Assembly: GCA_947074115.1 (NCBI GenBank)
Contig: CAMTOK010000001.1
Location: 1-64,000, forward strand
DNA length: 64,000 bases
Origin: an uncultured Erysipelotrichaceae bacterium
GTDB lineage: Bacteria; Bacillota_I; Bacilli_A; Erysipelotrichales; Coprobacillaceae
Direction of reading: 5' to 3'
Shown one piece after another: positions 20,579-57,669 of this stretch. Made by a program: the position numbers and the translations under genes. Under the pieces are notes generated by a model, which saw only the letters and a program-made list of their open reading frames with translations, searched no databases and was not told the origin of the DNA. Numbering within the stretch: the stretch's first letter is position 1; the number at the start of each line of letters is the position of its first letter.

Positions 20579-20626
20579 ACAAGAAAAATAGAAATCCTCA
20601 TTGTATAGAGTATTGAGGTGTCCAAT

Positions 20627-21538
20627 ATGCAAGATATGTTTAATAAAATTATTATAAGAGCGATTAAGAAACAAGCAACAGATATTCATTTTAAACTACA
20701 AAAAGAGGATTGCCCAATTCTTTTTCGTTGTCAAAACGAATTGATCACGTATGAATACAATGAAGAAGGTACACAAATAAAGTTATTTAATTATATGAAG
20801 TACTTAGCAGGTTTAGATTTAAACAACCGATGGTTACCTCAAACAGGTAAGATTCTTTTTATGGATCAAAATATCAATGTTTCAATCCGATTATCCTATT
20901 TACCATCACCACACTCAGAATCGATTGTACTACGTTTATTGGGGGTGAAAACATATCGTTCTTTAAGTGAGTTATCATGTGATCATCAATTTGAAAATCT
21001 TATTAAAGAAACAACATGTCATTTACAGGGATTGTTTTTGGTGAGTGGGGCTACAGGCTCAGGAAAAACAACAACAATGTATGCAATGATTGATGAGTTA
21101 AGTCAAAACCGTTCATTGAATATTATTTCATTAGAAGATCCAATTGAAATTACTAAAAACAATTGTATACAAGTAGAGATGAACGAAACACTTGGTATTA
21201 CATTTGAAATGACCTTAAAACAGGTGTTAAGGCATGATCCCGATGTTATTGTTGTTGGAGAAATTAGAACGGCAGAAACAGCGAAAATTGCAGTACAGTG
21301 CGCTCAAACGGGTCACCTCGTGCTCGCGACAATACATGCTGGAAGCGCCTATATGACATTAAAACGGTTAATGAGTTTAGAAATTAATCCTATTGATCTT
21401 GAAGATGTCATGAGTGGTATTGTTTATCAAGAGTTAGAATATGAGCAACAAAGAGCATACCTCAAATATGATTTTCTGAATAAGCAAGACATTATTGATT
21501 TAACACACCGATTTATTAAGGAGTTACAATATGGATAA
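20627..21538 (+). CDS. comGA: ComGA, competence pseudopilus ATPase
   Basis: A 303-residue secretion ATPase of the PilB/GspE type that powers assembly of the DNA-uptake pseudopilus at the cytoplasmic membrane. Walker A G141-ATGSGKT148, an Asp box LEDPIEI and Walker B DPDVIVVGEIR with the His box GHLVLATIHAG are all present. It is the short form without an N1 domain, as in Gram-positive ComGA. ATG 20627 follows GAGGTG by 6 bases; GTG 20618 lies inside that ribosome site. First gene of the seven-gene operon. No clear promoter was found in the 48-base gap. Confidence 0.96.
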   Translation: MQDMFNKIIIRAIKKQATDIHFKLQKEDCPILFRCQNELITYEYNEEGTQIKLFNYMKYLAGLDLNNRWLPQTGKILFMDQNINVSIRLSYLPSPHSESIVLRLLGVKTYRSLSELSCDHQFENLIKETTCHLQGLFLVSGATGSGKTTTMYAMIDELSQNRSLNIISLEDPIEITKNNCIQVEMNETLGITFEMTLKQVLRHDPDVIVVGEIRTAETAKIAVQCAQTGHLVLATIHAGSAYMTLKRLMSLEINPIDLEDVMSGIVYQELEYEQQRAYLKYDFLNKQDIIDLTHRFIKELQYG

Positions 21539-22529
21539 AACAATTCAATTCCTAAAAACATTTGCAGAATTGATTGAACAAGGCTATTCATTATCAGATA
21601 CGATTGATATTTGCGATGATATATATCATTTAGAAAAACAATTACAATTTCATAAACAATGTGAAAAAGGTGTGACAATCAATGAACTTATAGAACATAA
21701 AATGTTCCCAGTGATTATTATTGATTTTTTCCACTATTATAATAAAACACAACCTTTCTCTAAAGCTTTATTACACAGTATTAATATCTATGAATCTATT
21801 GAATTTTTTAAATCATATATGATCTCTAAACTTACTTATCCTCTTGCACTCCTTGTCTTTCTCTTTGGTTTCTCTATATTTACATCGCTTGTCTTATTTC
21901 CGCAAGTTACATTATTGTTTGAGTCCTTTGATGTATCGATGAGTTTTGCATTAAAGACAGTTATGTTTATCTACAAATGTATACCAATCGCACTCATTCT
22001 TATTTTAAGTTATTTAAGTTATAAAGTTTTTAGATTTATTTACGCTATAAGGAATAAGAAGTATAAAATCATTGAAACTTACCTCAATTATCCTGTTATA
22101 GGTGAAATGATTAAAAAGTATTTCTCATTACAGTTGAGTGTTTATTTTGTTGAATTATCAAAAGAAATCAGAGACATAAAAACAATACTCAATATGTTAT
22201 CTACAATGATGAATAAAAAGGAGTTAAAGATCGTTCTCTATGAGATGCAGATAGAAGTTCAAAAAGGAGAACCGTTAGAACAGGTTGTTGAATCATTTCA
22301 ATATTTTGACTCACTCTTTATTCAGTTCTTTCGTTTATATATGTTAGATACAAAGATGAACGATTGTTTAATTCTTTATAATCAAATTACTAAGACATAT
22401 TTTGAAAATCTCTTTACACGTTTTATTAAAATACTAGTACCAAGTATTTATTTATTTGTGACATCATTTGTTGTCATTATTTACATATCAGTCATTTTAC
22501 CAATGATGAATATCTTTTCTCAACTATAG
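21531..22529 (+). CDS. comGB: ComGB, pseudopilus inner-membrane platform protein
   Basis: A 332-residue GspF/PilC-like polytopic membrane protein. Two type II secretion F domains are seen, each ending in hydrophobic helices (around residues 105-130, 145-170 and a C-terminal helix at 300-325 ending SVILPMMN). It anchors the pseudopilus and couples to ComGA. The start overlaps comGA by 8 bases, indicating translational coupling. The N-terminal third is polar and shorter than in PilC, as usual for ComGB. Confidence 0.93.
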   Translation: MDKTIQFLKTFAELIEQGYSLSDTIDICDDIYHLEKQLQFHKQCEKGVTINELIEHKMFPVIIIDFFHYYNKTQPFSKALLHSINIYESIEFFKSYMISKLTYPLALLVFLFGFSIFTSLVLFPQVTLLFESFDVSMSFALKTVMFIYKCIPIALILILSYLSYKVFRFIYAIRNKKYKIIETYLNYPVIGEMIKKYFSLQLSVYFVELSKEIRDIKTILNMLSTMMNKKELKIVLYEMQIEVQKGEPLEQVVESFQYFDSLFIQFFRLYMLDTKMNDCLILYNQITKTYFENLFTRFIKILVPSIYLFVTSFVVIIYISVILPMMNIFSQL

Positions 22530-22539
22530 GAGGTTTATT

Positions 22540-22842
22540 ATGAAAAGAAATGGTTTTACTTTAATAGAGATGATCTTTTGCTTATCGATTATTTTATTAA
22601 TACTTTTACTTGTCATTCCATCGGTAACATCAAAGAATTCAATTGTGAGGGATAAGGGGTGTCAGGCACAAGTAGAAGTCATTAATGCACAAATTGTTTT
22701 GTATGAAATTGAAAATGGTGAATTACCTGATTCAATAGAAGATTTAATTGATGAAAATGATACATATATAACAAGAAAACAATCACTTTGTCCAAATGGA
22801 AAGGCGATAGAGATATCAGAAGGCAAGGCTTATGTTGAATGA
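22540..22842 (+). CDS. comGC: ComGC, major pseudopilin
   Basis: A 100-residue class III prepilin. Leader MKRNG is cut before FTLIEMIFC, where Glu5 of the mature protein guides assembly, and a long hydrophobic helix follows. Two cysteines in the globular part (KGCQAQ and SLCPNG) could form the disulfide known for ComGC. It polymerises into the fibre that pulls DNA to the membrane. Processing needs the ComC peptidase, which is not in this window. AGGAGG is 8 bases upstream. Confidence 0.96.
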   Translation: MKRNGFTLIEMIFCLSIILLILLLVIPSVTSKNSIVRDKGCQAQVEVINAQIVLYEIENGELPDSIEDLIDENDTYITRKQSLCPNGKAIEISEGKAYVE

Positions 22843-23224
22843 CCGTGGTTTTACTCTTGTAGAAATATTATTTGTGGTAAGTATTATTCTTATACTTGTC
22901 GCAATAACGCTCCCTTATAGCAAGCCTGTGCAATTTCACTATGATGAATTAATTATTGAACGTTTTTTATATGACGCGCATTTAATGGCATTACAAACGA
23001 AAATGAAAGTAAATGTTATATTAAAAGACGATTCTATGACTTATTCTACCGATGAATTGAGTCGAACAGAATTCTTAAGAGAGGCTACCTTTCTTGGTAC
23101 CTATCAATTTCATTATAATGCGAGTGGAAATATTAGTAAGGCAGGGACTTATGATTTTTTAGTTAACGGAGATGAAAAATCAATAGTTACACAACTAGGG
23201 AGTGGAGCGTTTTATATTGAATAA
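22832..23224 (+). CDS. comGD: ComGD, minor pseudopilin
   Basis: A 130-residue prepilin-like protein: leader MLNDRG, then FTLVEILFVVSIILILVAIT with the position-5 Glu and membrane helix, then a beta-rich globular part. It overlaps comGC by 11 bases. Gene order and length fit ComGD, a minor subunit needed for pseudopilus initiation. The globular domain is divergent, as it always is, so the letter is assigned from position. Confidence 0.9.
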   Translation: MLNDRGFTLVEILFVVSIILILVAITLPYSKPVQFHYDELIIERFLYDAHLMALQTKMKVNVILKDDSMTYSTDELSRTEFLREATFLGTYQFHYNASGNISKAGTYDFLVNGDEKSIVTQLGSGAFYIE

Positions 23225-23414
23225 GAGTGGTATGACCTTAATAGAATCTCTTATTGCTTTTTCGATACTTATGATCATATGCCTATCATTGTTACCGTTA
23301 TATAATATAATGATGAAACAACAAGACGGTTATCAATATGATTTAAAAGAGAATAGTGGGGAAGGTTACGAATGGGAAGATTATCAAGAATTAATTCAAA
23401 TGGTTTTACCTTAA
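23202..23414 (+). CDS. comGE: ComGE-like minor pseudopilin (short)
   Basis: A 65 to 70-residue prepilin: leader LNKSG, then MTLIESLIAFSILMII. GTG 23202 opens the frame, but TTG 23217 has GGAG nine bases upstream and would give the usual short leader, so it may be the real start. The protein is much shorter than Bacillus ComGE (about 115 residues) and has almost no globular domain. It overlaps comGD and also comGF by 43 bases. Assigned by position in the operon. Confidence 0.78.
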   Translation: MERFILNKSGMTLIESLIAFSILMIICLSLLPLYNIMMKQQDGYQYDLKENSGEGYEWEDYQELIQMVLP

Positions 23415-23797
23415 TAGAAACATTACTTGCTTTTGTTATATGTGTTTTTATCGTCTCACTTGTGCCGACAATAATAATCAGTGTTCATCCTAATCGTATA
23501 AATTCGGACATTTATGAAGATATTGCGATTGCATCCTCCCAAATATCACAATATCTTTTTAATGAGGTTGTTTCTATTGAAGATAATGAGATTGTCTATA
23601 AGGATGAAGATGAAAAAGAGTACACAATCAGTTTGGATAAAGACAGAGTTGTTAAAACGCCAGGTTATCAAATCTTTCTCTATAATGTATCTGATGTCGC
23701 CTTTGAATATATTGAGAATTGTATTTACATGACGATAACAAGATATGATCATGATTATAAAATACTTATAGGAGTGAATCACATTTATGAAGAATAG
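23372..23797 (+). CDS. comGF: ComGF-like minor pseudopilin
   Basis: A 141-residue protein with a prepilin N-terminus (INSNG, then FTLIETLLAFVICVFIVSLV) and a beta-rich acidic C-terminal domain. ComGF family proteins have this two-part layout and the matching size. It overlaps comGE by 43 bases and comGG by 11. Start ATG 23372 follows AAGG at modest spacing; no better start exists before the prepilin motif. Confidence 0.83.
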   Translation: MGRLSRINSNGFTLIETLLAFVICVFIVSLVPTIIISVHPNRINSDIYEDIAIASSQISQYLFNEVVSIEDNEIVYKDEDEKEYTISLDKDRVVKTPGYQIFLYNVSDVAFEYIENCIYMTITRYDHDYKILIGVNHIYEE

Positions 23798-24149
23798 AGG
23801 GAGTGCATTGATGGTTGTTCTTGTTTTGTTTTCATTTATGATCAGTTCCTTGTTTACTGCTTCACTTCTTTATAGTCATCAAATTCAAGTAAAGAAAAAG
23901 GTTGAAGATGTTATGGTGTTGAAAGATATAACAATTATGATTGTGGGGTATTACCAATATCATACTATGAATGGGATGTTGTTTTCAGAGTCGTATGAAG
24001 ATGAAAATTATAGTATAGATTCAACAGTTTTAGAAGATTATGATTATTATGAAATTGAAACTTCAATAACAACAAAGAAATCAGAGTATAAATTTTCCTT
24101 TAGGGTGAATAAAAATAATAGTAACATTTCGTATTTTACATATGTATAG
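23787..24149 (+). CDS. comGG: ComGG-like minor pseudopilin
   Basis: A 120-residue protein starting KNRGSALMVVLVLFSFMISSLF, a membrane helix without the FTLIE signature, as in ComGG and PilX-type minor pilins, followed by a polar, beta-rich tail. It is the seventh gene in the comG array, overlapping comGF by 11 bases. The assignment rests on order and topology; sequence divergence in this family is high. It closes the operon. Confidence 0.8.
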   Translation: MKNRGSALMVVLVLFSFMISSLFTASLLYSHQIQVKKKVEDVMVLKDITIMIVGYYQYHTMNGMLFSESYEDENYSIDSTVLEDYDYYEIETSITTKKSEYKFSFRVNKNNSNISYFTYV

Positions 24150-24225: not shown

Positions 24226-24783
24226 ATGATAAGTGTTGGAGATTTAAGACCAGGGATGACTTTTCAATACGAAGGAAATCTATTCGTCGTTTTAGAAGCT
24301 TCTCATAATAAAACTGCAAGAGCAGCAGCAAACATTAAAGTAAAAATGAAAAATATGAGAACAGGATCAACGACTGAAATTACTTTCGGTGGTGGAGATA
24401 AAGTTCCTAAAGCTCATATTGAAAAAAGAAAAATGCAATATTTATATGATGCTGGGGGAATGTTAGTTTTCATGGATAATGAAACATATGAACAAATTGA
24501 AATTCCTAGCGATCGTTTAAAATGGGAATTAAACTTCTTAAAAGCATCTGATGAAGTTGAAGTTACTTCATTTGAAGGAGAAATTTTAGGTGTTGCGTTA
24601 CCAATCAATGTTGAATTCACAGTTACTGAAGCTGAACCAGCTGTTAAAGGTGATACTGCAAGTGGTGCGACAAAAAATGCTATTATCGAGACAGGATTCC
24701 AAATTCGTGTCCCATTATTCATCAGTGAAGGTGAACGAGTAATCGTGAATACTGTTGATGGAAAATATCAAGGAAGAGCTTAA
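24226..24783 (+). CDS. efp: Elongation factor P
   Basis: A 185-residue three-barrel tRNA mimic that relieves ribosome stalling at polyproline. The KOW-like N-terminal domain (ISVGDLRPG), the loop HNKTARAAANIKVK, where modification would occur, and the C-terminal GFQIRVPLFISEGERVIVNT signature are complete. The tip residue in the HNKTARAA loop is Thr/Ala-flanked rather than the modified Lys34/Arg32 context, so the modification state is uncertain. AGGAGG lies 8 bases upstream. Monocistronic, with its own terminator. Confidence 0.97.
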   Translation: MISVGDLRPGMTFQYEGNLFVVLEASHNKTARAAANIKVKMKNMRTGSTTEITFGGGDKVPKAHIEKRKMQYLYDAGGMLVFMDNETYEQIEIPSDRLKWELNFLKASDEVEVTSFEGEILGVALPINVEFTVTEAEPAVKGDTASGATKNAIIETGFQIRVPLFISEGERVIVNTVDGKYQGRA

Positions 24784-24796
24784 TGCTCTTTTTTTT
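24774..24796 (+). terminator. Terminator after efp
   Basis: AAGAGC-TTAAT-GCTCTT plus T tract; the stop codon is in the loop. Confidence 0.9.
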
Positions 24797-24823
24797 CATA
24801 TTTTAGACTCTTCGTCATATAGT
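24796..24823 (+). promoter_or_regulatory. Putative sigma-E promoter of spoIIIAH
   Basis: TCATATT (24796-24802) matches the sigma-E -35 consensus KMATATT exactly; after 13 bases comes CATATAGT (24816-24823), 6 of 8 with CATACAMT. It overlaps the efp terminator tail. TSS is expected near 24830. Confidence 0.5.
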
Positions 24824-24845
24824 ATAGAAGTAAAGGAGAATGAAT

Positions 24846-25298
24846 ATGAACAAACAGGCAATTACATTTCTAACATTATTTAGTTTAATACTCGTTTTAT
24901 CAGTATATTACATCATGCTTCCACCAGTAGATGAATCTGTATCATCAGAAGGAACAACAATTGAAGTGCTCCAACAAGATTTGGATAAGAAAAGAGAAGA
25001 AATCATCTCTAAAAACAATCAATTGATTGCTCAAGAATCAAGTACTTCTGATGACATCAGTGAAGCACTTGCTTCTAACAGTGAAGTTAAATCTCTTAGT
25101 GAGAAGGAAAAAAGTGTAGTAGAAAAGATCAAAGGATTAGGGTATTCTGACGCTTTTGTTGAAATCGAACAAAATACAGTCAAAATAACTGTTGTTAAAA
25201 AAGATTCAACAAACGCTGATGCATCACAAATTATTAGTGAAACAATGAATCTCATGGGAGATGGATTCCAAGTTGAGGTAAAATTTATAGCCGAATAA
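24846..25298 (+). CDS. spoIIIAH: SpoIIIAH-family sporulation channel protein
   Basis: A 150-residue bitopic protein. Residues 1-24 (NKQAITFLTLFSLILVLSVY) match the SpoIIIAH membrane anchor closely; a Glu/Lys/Ser-rich coiled region follows, and the C-terminal 70 residues hold the ring-building fold (VVEKIKGLGYSDAFVEIE, KITVV, VEVKF). In B. subtilis it pairs with forespore SpoIIQ to form the engulfment feeding channel. It is shorter than the 218-residue Bacillus protein because the linker is trimmed. ATG 24846 is 6 bases after AAGGAGA. spoIIIAA to AG, normally just upstream, are absent here. Confidence 0.9.
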   Translation: MNKQAITFLTLFSLILVLSVYYIMLPPVDESVSSEGTTIEVLQQDLDKKREEIISKNNQLIAQESSTSDDISEALASNSEVKSLSEKEKSVVEKIKGLGYSDAFVEIEQNTVKITVVKKDSTNADASQIISETMNLMGDGFQVEVKFIAE

Positions 25299-25352: not shown

Positions 25353-25700
25353 ATGGCACACAACGAATATTATGCTTATAAAAAAGGAACAGTATCAGGG
25401 GACATTATGATGAATGTTCAGGTTTTTGATGATATTGTTAAAAGAGCTGTCAATACGATTGATATGGTAGCGATTGATTTTTCTAAAGGTGTACCAATTC
25501 CAGGGACGAAAAGAACGGTCTCTTGTTCAATTAAAGATAACGATGTTTATGTTACAATTCACGTTAATTTAAAATATGGTGCAAATGTGACAGTTGTCAC
25601 AAAAGAAGTGCAAACAAAGATTGCTTTAGCGATTAAAGAAGTAACAGGAGTACAAGTTAAAAATATTGACGTAAACGTTGATAATATTATATTTGACTAA
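25353..25700 (+). CDS. yqhY: Asp23/YqhY-family protein
   Basis: A 115-residue Asp23-domain protein (alkaline-shock family): NEYYAYKKGTVSGDIMMN, VNTIDMVAI, then two beta strands and KEVTGVQVKNIDVNVDNIIFD. YqhY in Bacillus sits between accC and nusB and is linked to control of acetyl-CoA carboxylase; here it directly follows spoIIIAH and precedes nusB, so it is the positional orthologue although accBC are missing. AGAGGTTG is the ribosome site. Followed by a strong terminator. Confidence 0.9.
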   Translation: MAHNEYYAYKKGTVSGDIMMNVQVFDDIVKRAVNTIDMVAIDFSKGVPIPGTKRTVSCSIKDNDVYVTIHVNLKYGANVTVVTKEVQTKIALAIKEVTGVQVKNIDVNVDNIIFD

Positions 25701-32855: not shown

Positions 32856-32883
32856 GTAACATCTAATATGTTACGAGGAGGTG
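32856..32883 (+). promoter_or_regulatory. Inverted repeat and ribosome binding site of spoIVB
   Basis: GTAACAT (32856-32862) and ATGTTAC (32868-32874) form a 7-bp hairpin with a CTAAT loop; AGGAGGTG (32876-32883) follows by one base and lies 8 bases before the TTG start at 32892. Confidence 0.55.
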
Positions 32884-32891
32884 TATATGCT

Positions 32892-33887
32892 TTGCTTTTT
32901 AAAAAGTTAAGTATTGCACTCGTCGTTTTCACATCATTTCTTTACTCTACATGTCATGTTTATGCCTTAGAGGTCATCCTCGGTGGACAATCAATCGGTA
33001 TTCAATTAGAATACGATGGCGTTATGATTACAGGAACATATGATATTTCTATTGACAATAAAACTTACAATCCTGCATCAGACGGATTCCAAGCCGGAGA
33101 TTTAATTACACATGTTAATGGGAGTCAAGTGTCATCGATTTCACTTTTAATGTCAAACGTTGAAAAAGAAATTGGTAAGAACAATGATATAACACTCACT
33201 ATTTTTAAAAACAATAAATCCATCAATAAAACCTTGAAATACCAAATGGCTCAAGACAAATTCTCCACTGGTTTATATGTTCAAGAAAAACTAATGGGTG
33301 TCGGGACATTAACATATTATAATCCAAATCAACAAACTTATGGTGCCTTAGGACATGTACTAATTGATAACAAATTAGCTAATGTTGAAGCGCTTGAACA
33401 GGGATCAGTGTACAATTCCTATGTTAAAAGAATTCAAGCCTCAAGTAATGGTAATCCTGGGGAAAAAGTAGCAGATATAGGAACAATTAAATTTGGGACT
33501 GTATATAAAAACAATAATTTCGGATTATATGGTAAATACGATTCATTGTTATCTCAAAACGTCACTTATATTAATACGGCAACACAAGATGAAGTGACAA
33601 CAGGAGATGCTTATTTTTTAACAGTTTTAGAAGGACAAACTGTCCAAAAAGTGAATATTAAAATCACAAAACTAAAAAAACAAGCAACAGCAGAGACAAA
33701 AGGGATTACTTTTGAAATAATAGATAAAGAAGTATTAGCATTAACCAATGGTGTCATTCAAGGGATGAGTGGATCTCCAATCATTCAGAATGGAAAACTT
33801 GTTGGTGCTGTAACCCATGTCGATGTAAACAATGTCAAACAAGGGTATGGATTATATATTGATTGGATGTTAGAAAACGACAATTAA
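32892..33887 (+). CDS. spoIVB: SpoIV B signalling serine protease
   Basis: A 331-residue secreted/anchored S55-family peptidase that, in Bacillus, passes from forespore to mother cell to release pro-sigma-K processing. An N-terminal hydrophobic anchor is followed by a PDZ-like domain (DGFQAGDLITHVNGSQV) and the protease with His155 in GALGHVLID and Ser293 in QGMSGSPI. I choose TTG 32892: a perfect Shine-Dalgarno (AGGAGGTG) lies 8 bases upstream, whereas ATG 32868 lies before it with none. About 90 residues shorter than the Bacillus protein, mostly in the N-terminal linker. Confidence 0.92.
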   Translation: MLFKKLSIALVVFTSFLYSTCHVYALEVILGGQSIGIQLEYDGVMITGTYDISIDNKTYNPASDGFQAGDLITHVNGSQVSSISLLMSNVEKEIGKNNDITLTIFKNNKSINKTLKYQMAQDKFSTGLYVQEKLMGVGTLTYYNPNQQTYGALGHVLIDNKLANVEALEQGSVYNSYVKRIQASSNGNPGEKVADIGTIKFGTVYKNNNFGLYGKYDSLLSQNVTYINTATQDEVTTGDAYFLTVLEGQTVQKVNIKITKLKKQATAETKGITFEIIDKEVLALTNGVIQGMSGSPIIQNGKLVGAVTHVDVNNVKQGYGLYIDWMLENDN

Positions 33888-34050: not shown

Positions 34051-34083
34051 GATGTTGCTGTGGAGGAGTTGAAAGGGGATAAT

Positions 34084-34908
34084 ATGAATACTTACATCGC
34101 TGTAGAACAACAAGAATTATTAGATAATTTAAGAAATGCATTAGAAAGAACAAATCAATTTAGAGTTATTGGTGCTGCAAATAATGGAACTGATTGTTTA
34201 AATTTTTTAAATCAAAGAAACTGTGATTTATTAATCATTGATCTAATGTTACCTGAAATTGATGGGTTGGGAGTTTTAAAAAGATTAAGAGAAATGAATA
34301 AACAAAGTTATAAAAAAGTTATTTGCATTACTCAATTTACAAATCAAATGATTTGCAATATGTTAGAAAGTTTAAATGTTGATTATTGCTTTAAACATCC
34401 ATTTGATTTACAACATTTTGTACAATCTGCTTTATTTATTACAACATCTGAAAATGCTGTTCAAGATACATACAGTAGTTCTGATGAATCAGAAAAATAT
34501 AAAAAAGTTAAAATTGAAAATGAAATTACTGAAATTTTACATGAAGTAGGTATTCCTGCTCACATCAAAGGATATATGTATTTAAGAACTGCTATCTTAA
34601 CAACATATTATAACATTGACATTTTAGGCCAAGTCACAAAAGTGTTATATCCTGATATTGCACGTATGTATAATACAACATCTTCAAGAGTTGAAAGAGC
34701 AATCAGACATGCTATTGAAGTTGCTTGGAATAGGGGGAATACAGAAGCAATTGATGAAATCTTTGGATATACGGTTTCTGCTATTAAAGCTAAACCTACA
34801 AATAGTGAGTTTATTGCAATGATTGCTGATAAATTGAGATTAGCTCATAAAACTGATAGTGTTAAAAAAGAAAGTTTGTATAATTACAAAGACTACATGT
34901 TAAAATAA
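34084..34908 (+). CDS. spo0A: Spo0A, master regulator of sporulation
   Basis: A 274-residue response regulator. The receiver keeps phospho-acceptor Asp53 in [11 protein letters not shown] and Thr83, but the two acidic residues at the start are Val7-Glu8 (IAVEQQEL) and the conserved Lys before Pro-Phe is His105 (FKHPFD). The DNA-binding domain (residues about 150-265) is well kept, including the recognition helix S200[15 protein letters not shown]. ATG 34084 follows AAAGGGGA; upstream GTG 34060 lies before the ribosome site. It comes after spoIVB as in Bacillus. The atypical receiver suggests altered phosphorylation. Confidence 0.95.
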
Positions 34909-56970: not shown

Positions 56971-56985
56971 GAATTGAGGTGGATT

Positions 56986-57669
56986 ATGTTTACAACATTA
57001 ATAGCAATTTTACAACAGTTCCTTTTTGTCTCATATGTGAAGACTCAAGCTTACAAAAAACAACTGAGTCCTAAAGAGGAAGCAGAAGTTTTAGAGGAAT
57101 ATTTTAACGGGAGTAAAGAAGCAAGACAAAAGCTTATAGAACATAACTTAAGGCTTGTTGCTCATGTATCTAAAAAATATGAAGGTGGTAAAGATTTACA
57201 AGAAGATTTAATTAGTATTGGTACAATAGGTCTTATCAAAGCAATTGATAGCTATAAGCCAACCAAAGCAACTAAACTGGGAACATATGCTGCAAAATGT
57301 ATAGAAAATGAAATTCTTATGCATTTGAGAACAAATAAAAAAATATCAAGAGACGTTTCTCTTAATGAAGTTCTAGGCGTTGATAAAGATGGTGGAGAAA
57401 TGACTTTGCTTGATATATTACCAGCCAATACAAGAGATTTTATTGATGAAATTCAAACCTCTGATCAAATAAAAGAACTTCAGGAACATTTTAATCAACT
57501 TGGACAACGAGAAAGAGAAATTCTTATTTACCGTTATGGGTTAAATAATACAAAAGAACTGACACAAAAACAAATAGCAGAAAAAATGAATATTTCACGT
57601 TCTTATGTCTCACGTTTAGAAAAGAGAGCTCTCATTAAATTATTAAAAGCTTATATGAATGATAATTAA
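56986..57669 (+). CDS. sigK: RNA polymerase sigma-K (late mother-cell sigma factor)
   Basis: A 227-residue sigma-70-family protein. The N-terminal 22 residues (hydrophobic FTTLIAILQQFLFVSYVK) match the cleavable pro-sequence of pro-sigma-K. Region 2 is IEHNLRLVAHVSKKYEGGKDLQEDLISIGTIGLIKAI, and region 4 ends with ISRSYVSRLEKRALIK, nearly the Bacillus sequence. ATG 56986 follows GAGGTGG by 4 bases. The gene is intact and has no skin-type insertion. It directs late mother-cell genes for coat and spore maturation. Confidence 0.95.
   Translation: MFTTLIAILQQFLFVSYVKTQAYKKQLSPKEEAEVLEEYFNGSKEARQKLIEHNLRLVAHVSKKYEGGKDLQEDLISIGTIGLIKAIDSYKPTKATKLGTYAAKCIENEILMHLRTNKKISRDVSLNEVLGVDKDGGEMTLLDILPANTRDFIDEIQTSDQIKELQEHFNQLGQREREILIYRYGLNNTKELTQKQIAEKMNISRSYVSRLEKRALIKLLKAYMNDN

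Follow-up and report, generated by a model that had tools for sequence, protein, structure and literature searches.

The window analysed here is a stretch of 64,000 nucleotides from the genome of an uncultured Erysipelotrichaceae bacterium. Open reading frames and profile matches in the window give the gene order efp, spoIIIAH, Asp23/yqhY, nusB, xseA, xseB, ispA, dxs, tlyA, recN, spoIVB and spo0A, in agreement with a preliminary description of this DNA, whose coordinates were also correct (Table 1). The upstream neighbour efp marks the ancestral place of spoIIIA, and spoIIIAH lies in that place, between efp and yqhY, as the preliminary description held and as it does in the organism's own family. 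The gap between efp and spoIIIAH is 57 bp, into which further genes would not fit. A comG-type operon encoding a T2SSE ATPase, a T2SSF protein and pilin-like ORFs is found immediately 5' of efp (20618-24149).

Table 1. Features of the spoIIIAH locus and other sporulation genes in the window
Feature	Position	Strand	Basis
efp (elongation factor P)	24226..24783	+	ORF; order kept in relatives
Probable efp terminator, AGAGC-TTAAT-GCTCT then T run	~24775..24796	+	read from sequence
Sigma-E-like -35, TCATATT	24796..24802	+	motif scoring; common to the lone spoIIIAH of most relatives
Sigma-E-like -10, CATATAGT, 13-base spacer	24816..24823	+	motif scoring
Ribosome-binding site, AAAGGAG	24832..24838	+	read from sequence
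spoIIIAH, 152 aa	24840..25298	+	PF12685; homologue profile; fold
N-terminal membrane anchor, residues 3-26	24846..24917	+	predicted helix; strong conservation in alignment A5
Ring-building-type beta-beta-alpha-beta domain, residues 105-150	25152..25289	+	predicted secondary structure; Foldseek
Strand QVEVKFI with SpoIIQ-docking residues (B. subtilis 210-214)	25269..25289	+	conservation test; interface residues from PMC12720343
Asp23-family gene, yqhY position, downstream neighbour	25353..25700	+	PF03780
spoIVB	32868..33887	+	TIGR02860 / PF05580
spo0A	34060..34908	+	TIGR02875, above cut-off
sigK, uninterrupted	56974..57669	+	NF004471, above cut-off

The spoIIIAH gene is intact and matches PF12685 at 37.2 bits, against a curated cut-off of 30.6; homologues point to the second ATG, at 24846, as its true start, which would give a protein of 150 aa. 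A profile built from SpoIIIAH homologues aligns without gaps across about 120 residues (E = 3e-24) to 3uz0_A, the SpoIIIAH chain of the solved complex with SpoIIQ. When a template-free model was searched with Foldseek, SpoIIIAH chains were recovered first (3tuf_A, 5e-8; 3uz0_A, TM (target) 0.92), followed weakly by EscJ and PrgK. The predicted anchor is a single hydrophobic N-terminal helix. Both the anchor and the ring fold ascribed to this protein by the preliminary description are borne out.

We then asked which other spoIIIA genes can be recognised in 118 genomes, comprising the window's own genome and its relatives. SpoIIIAE, a polytopic protein and, of the membrane parts of SpoIIIA, the largest and the easiest to recognise, was found by profile search in none of the 118, although the same model readily detects the SpoIIIAE proteins of B. 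subtilis and of a family that we label f13. Among 395 genomes sampled across the class, SpoIIIAE is present in six, all of them from f13, which probably corresponds to Turicibacter and Haloplasma. No SpoIIIAA scored above the cut-off in the 118 genomes and the organism's own genome gave no match whatever; matches of 18-34 bits elsewhere cover only short ATPase stretches, lie far below the 281-bit cut-off and were rejected. TIGR02830 likewise returned no SpoIIIAG above its cut-off in these genomes, but this negative is weak, because the model also misses the SpoIIIAG of operon-bearing f13; a tblastn search with f13 SpoIIIAG as query found none near spoIIIAH outside f13. The genome-wide searches covered AA, AE and AG, and AB, AC, AD and AF are absent at the locus; the AC and AD proteins of f13 score below the PF06686 (AC/AD) cut-off. 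The organism's own draft assembly is 95% complete and comprises 177 contigs; three single-contig relatives (G003, G034 and G035) give the same picture. The proposed loss of spoIIIAA-AG thus stands genome-wide for SpoIIIAE and for any recognisable SpoIIIAA, whereas for SpoIIIAG it depends on an insensitive model and for AB, AC, AD and AF it applies to the locus.

The loss is shared by relatives: a profile built from the order's own SpoIIIAH proteins detects lone SpoIIIAH in 49 of the 118 genomes. Wherever the contig permits a check in the window's own family, spoIIIAH has efp on one side and yqhY/nusB/xseA on the other. The pattern includes Thomasclavelia cocleata, T. saccharogumia, [Clostridium] spiroforme, Longibaculum muris, Massilimicrobiota timonensis and Faecalibacillus, and its members probably put the window near the Coprobacillaceae. 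SpoIIIAH without SpoIIIAE also occurs in many families across the class. Pfam matches confined to the N-terminal part (e.g. in G017, G032 and G044) were not accepted as SpoIIIAH, and a search with alignment A5 detected no SpoIIIAH in these genomes. The f13 operon has the order AC-AD-AE-AF-AG-AH, neither AA nor AB being visible there, and we infer that this family represents an intermediate stage of spoIIIA loss. In one f13 genome in which SpoIIIAE went undetected (G185; L101 3771-4430), spoIIIAH lies elsewhere, adjoining dapB; in an operon-bearing genome (L098 5040-6014), a transposase-like ORF separates efp from the spoIIIAC-AH genes.

It is very unlikely, in our view, that diverged or unrelated proteins such as ComGA and ComGB (20618-22529) supply the other spoIIIA functions here: the comG genes lie next to efp in Bacillus too, and no SpoIIIAE-like protein was found in the 118 genomes. 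What speaks for such a disguised full machine is that the ATPase domain type of ComGA (T2SSE) is the one by which some SpoIIIAA proteins have been recognised (PMC7924749). Nor did we find support for the suggestion, made in the preliminary description, that SpoIIIAH forms a simpler feeding channel. With SpoIIIAE and a recognised ATPase both absent, no known conduit or motor is left on the mother-cell side, and a feeding channel is therefore not the best reading. A minimal channel, in which SpoIIIAH rings dock on SpoIIQ rings and unknown or borrowed membrane parts complete the passage, would draw on the resemblance of the ring-building-type fold to EscJ and PrgK and on published ring models of SpoIIIAH-SpoIIQ alone (PMC12720343); given that the same source terms the ring assemblies uncorroborated, and given the missing SpoIIIAE and unrecognisable SpoIIIAA ATPase, we consider it unlikely.

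Transcription of spoIIIAH is predicted to start at a sigma-E-like promoter of its own. An inverted repeat followed by a T run stands between efp and spoIIIAH. The -35 consensus for sigma-E is kmATATT, to which the -35 of spoIIIAH is an exact fit, as had been claimed for it, and the -10, CATATAGT, has two mismatches with CATACAHT; an equal score was reached in 0 of 200 shuffles. The motif TCATATT-N13/14-CATATAnT, or a near variant, precedes the lone spoIIIAH in most relatives and outscores dinucleotide shuffles, whereas a search directly upstream of the spoIIIAH genes inside the f13 operon found no sigma-E-like box. As a second promoter within spoIIIA drives AG-AH in C. difficile (PMC4605598), the lone-spoIIIAH promoter may derive from either ancestral promoter.

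A weak Pfam score and a length below that of B. subtilis SpoIIIAH might be taken to mean that the gene is decaying or has been recruited to a job outside sporulation. This is highly improbable and already contradicted by the data: dN/dS among close relatives is 0.02-0.09, indicating strong purifying selection, on which a remnant was rejected; the sigma-E-like promoter and the retention of the gene alongside SpoIIQ and SpoIVA also argue against this reading. The preliminary description was right that the gene is no decaying remnant; its dN/dS, conserved promoter and ring-building fold support a functional gene.

Sporulation of this organism is a prediction from its genes; among cultured relatives, spore formation has been reported, with variable results (PMC3749518, PMC8340488, PMC10868615). 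In addition to the genes in the window, its genome has sigE adjoining sigG, spoIIAA-spoIIAB-sigF, SpoIVA, spoIID, and spoIVFA-FB after minCD. A sigma-E-like box read by eye 5' of sigK has the form ACATATC-N13-CATACAAT, and the ORF that precedes sigE, where spoIIGA would be expected (L197 2348-3091), has no Pfam match. The sigma-G of the organism's own family (L195 / L197; contig C23 in its own genome, G000) scores about 255 bits against a model cut-off of 457 and is nearly as close to sigma-F; elsewhere in the class, family scores run from 339 to 388. We dropped a link between this divergence and spoIIIA loss, because lone-spoIIIAH genomes outside the order score like the operon-bearing family.

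A search of the full genome located SpoIIQ outside the window, on contig C14, where its gene immediately follows spoIID and is itself followed by an mreB-type gene. The protein matches SpoIIQ as solved in the complex with SpoIIIAH (3uz0_B, E = 2.5e-30) and, by Foldseek, 3tuf_B (E = 2.6e-15). At the first zinc-ligand position the alignment reads N in place of H, and SpoIIQ is therefore probably no active peptidase. In several relatives the sequence 5' of spoIIQ, read by eye, resembles a sigma-F/G promoter. Across the 118 genomes, 48 have both SpoIIIAH and SpoIIQ, 66 have neither, one has SpoIIIAH alone and three have SpoIIQ alone, and both proteins track SpoIVA. The corresponding P values (about 1e-28 and 1e-23, by Fisher's exact test) overstate the evidence, as the genomes are related. 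Three genomes (G001, G006 and G012) have SpoIIQ and SpoIVA with SpoIIIAH undetected, which counts against a zipper pair; G006 is rated 100% complete, and in these genomes SpoIIIAH may have disappeared, may have diverged or may fall into a gap of the assembly.

The published interface comprises residues 96-120 of SpoIIQ, with Leu109 central, and residues 188-214 of SpoIIIAH (PMC12720343). An invariant SpoIIQ block, F-E-x-V-Y-R-P, falls on the segment that binds SpoIIIAH in B. subtilis (F101, E102, V104, Y105, R106 and P107 in the organism's own protein), and the key Leu109 corresponds to L98, kept in most members of the clade. On the SpoIIIAH side, conservation is higher at contact positions than over the remainder of the domain, both in the family (P = 0.011) and among all lone SpoIIIAH proteins (P = 0.031). 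Such conservation of the docking face agrees with the roles known for the pair, as a zipper and as an anchor. We regard it as unlikely that SpoIIIAH is mainly a landmark, with SpoIVFA/FB and coat factors localised via SpoIIQ and no mechanical zipper. The presence of SpoIVFA and SpoIVFB in this genome agrees with such a role, as does the finding that the B. subtilis pair acts as a localisation hub anchoring other proteins (PMC7769602); however, a landmark is also compatible with a zipper, and the sequence evidence does not separate the two.

Loss of the spoIIIA operon is not in itself new. Davis et al. 2013 (PMC3749518) found spore-forming Erysipelotrichia without any spoIIIA gene, SpoIIQ being apparently present, and took spoIIIA to be either non-essential or replaced. 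Class members without most of spoIIIA have also been described (PMC7924749), and spoIIQ and 'spoIIAH' are listed for the order RF39 as extra genes relative to Erysipelotrichales (PMC10868615). The SpoIIIAH of Erysipelotrichales was overlooked in all three studies; Galperin et al. 2022 (J Bacteriol) may list the pattern.

The system described here is like the B. subtilis A-Q complex (SpoIIIAA-AH : SpoIIQ) in the place of spoIIIAH, the position of SpoIIQ beside spoIID, the matching folds and the conserved docking faces, and differs from it in that SpoIIIAE is absent, SpoIIIAA is unrecognisable and spoIIIAH stands alone behind its own sigma-E-like promoter. C. difficile would be alike in SpoIIQ-SpoIIIAH binding with a role in engulfment and in having sigma-G activity that does not depend on the complex (PMC4605598), but its spoIIIA operon is complete and is required there for heat-resistant spores. 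The partial operon of f13, from the same class, also has spoIIIAH at its end and AA and AB unseen at the locus, and differs in keeping AC, AD, AE, AF and AG together with AH, with no sigma-E-like box directly before the last. Sporosarcina, Solibacillus and Lysinibacillus are likewise spore formers with partial spoIIIA loss, but retain several spoIIIA genes besides AH (in Sporosarcina AC, AD, AE, AG and AH; PMC7924749).

The reading we favour, and consider fairly probable, is that SpoIIIAH-SpoIIQ survives as a zipper for engulfment and an anchor at the septum, the pumping or feeding function of SpoIIIAA-AG having been lost and sigma-G being independent of it. On this view, what spore-forming Erysipelotrichales would have retained of the SpoIIIA-SpoIIQ complex is its bridging half and nothing more. 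Expressed in the mother cell under sigma-E, from a promoter of its own, and anchored in the engulfing membrane, SpoIIIAH would bind forespore-made SpoIIQ across the septal gap; the pair would serve engulfment as a zipper or ratchet and would also hold other septal proteins in place, and sigma-G activity would have been freed from dependence on the SpoIIIAA-AG pump. Binding of the two proteins in this organism, their compartments, the engulfment function and the independence of sigma-G from a channel are all points that we infer from sequence. That such a pair can zip the engulfing membrane forward is known from B. subtilis cells without a wall (PMC4605598). Published results stand as counterpoints, however: in B. 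subtilis direct SpoIIIAH-SpoIIQ contact is dispensable, SpoIIQ itself and, according to older literature, the other spoIIIA genes being needed (PMC12720343, PMC3533761); and a C. difficile spoIIIA mutant that likely still makes SpoIIIAH yields no heat-resistant spores (PMC4605598).

The lone spoIIIAH holds as an observation and is wider than the preliminary description stated, and it completes the 2013 report of SpoIIQ without a spoIIIA gene in spore-forming Erysipelotrichia. It is still debated whether SpoIIIA-SpoIIQ serves as feeding channel, zipper or anchor. A lineage with SpoIIIAH and SpoIIQ but without SpoIIIAE or a recognisable ATPase allows these roles to be told apart, and the question can be put to the test in cultured members such as Thomasclavelia cocleata. 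We see the case as evenly balanced that sporulation proceeds without the SpoIIIAA-AG pump across a broad group of gut bacteria, with SpoIIIAH-SpoIIQ as a pure intercellular fastener. If so, these bacteria, which seem to have lost most of the eight-part pump presumed to feed the developing spore, would have kept the contact that B. subtilis genetics finds dispensable and discarded parts called essential there, which suggests that, for them, fastening two cells together is the indispensable part of the complex.
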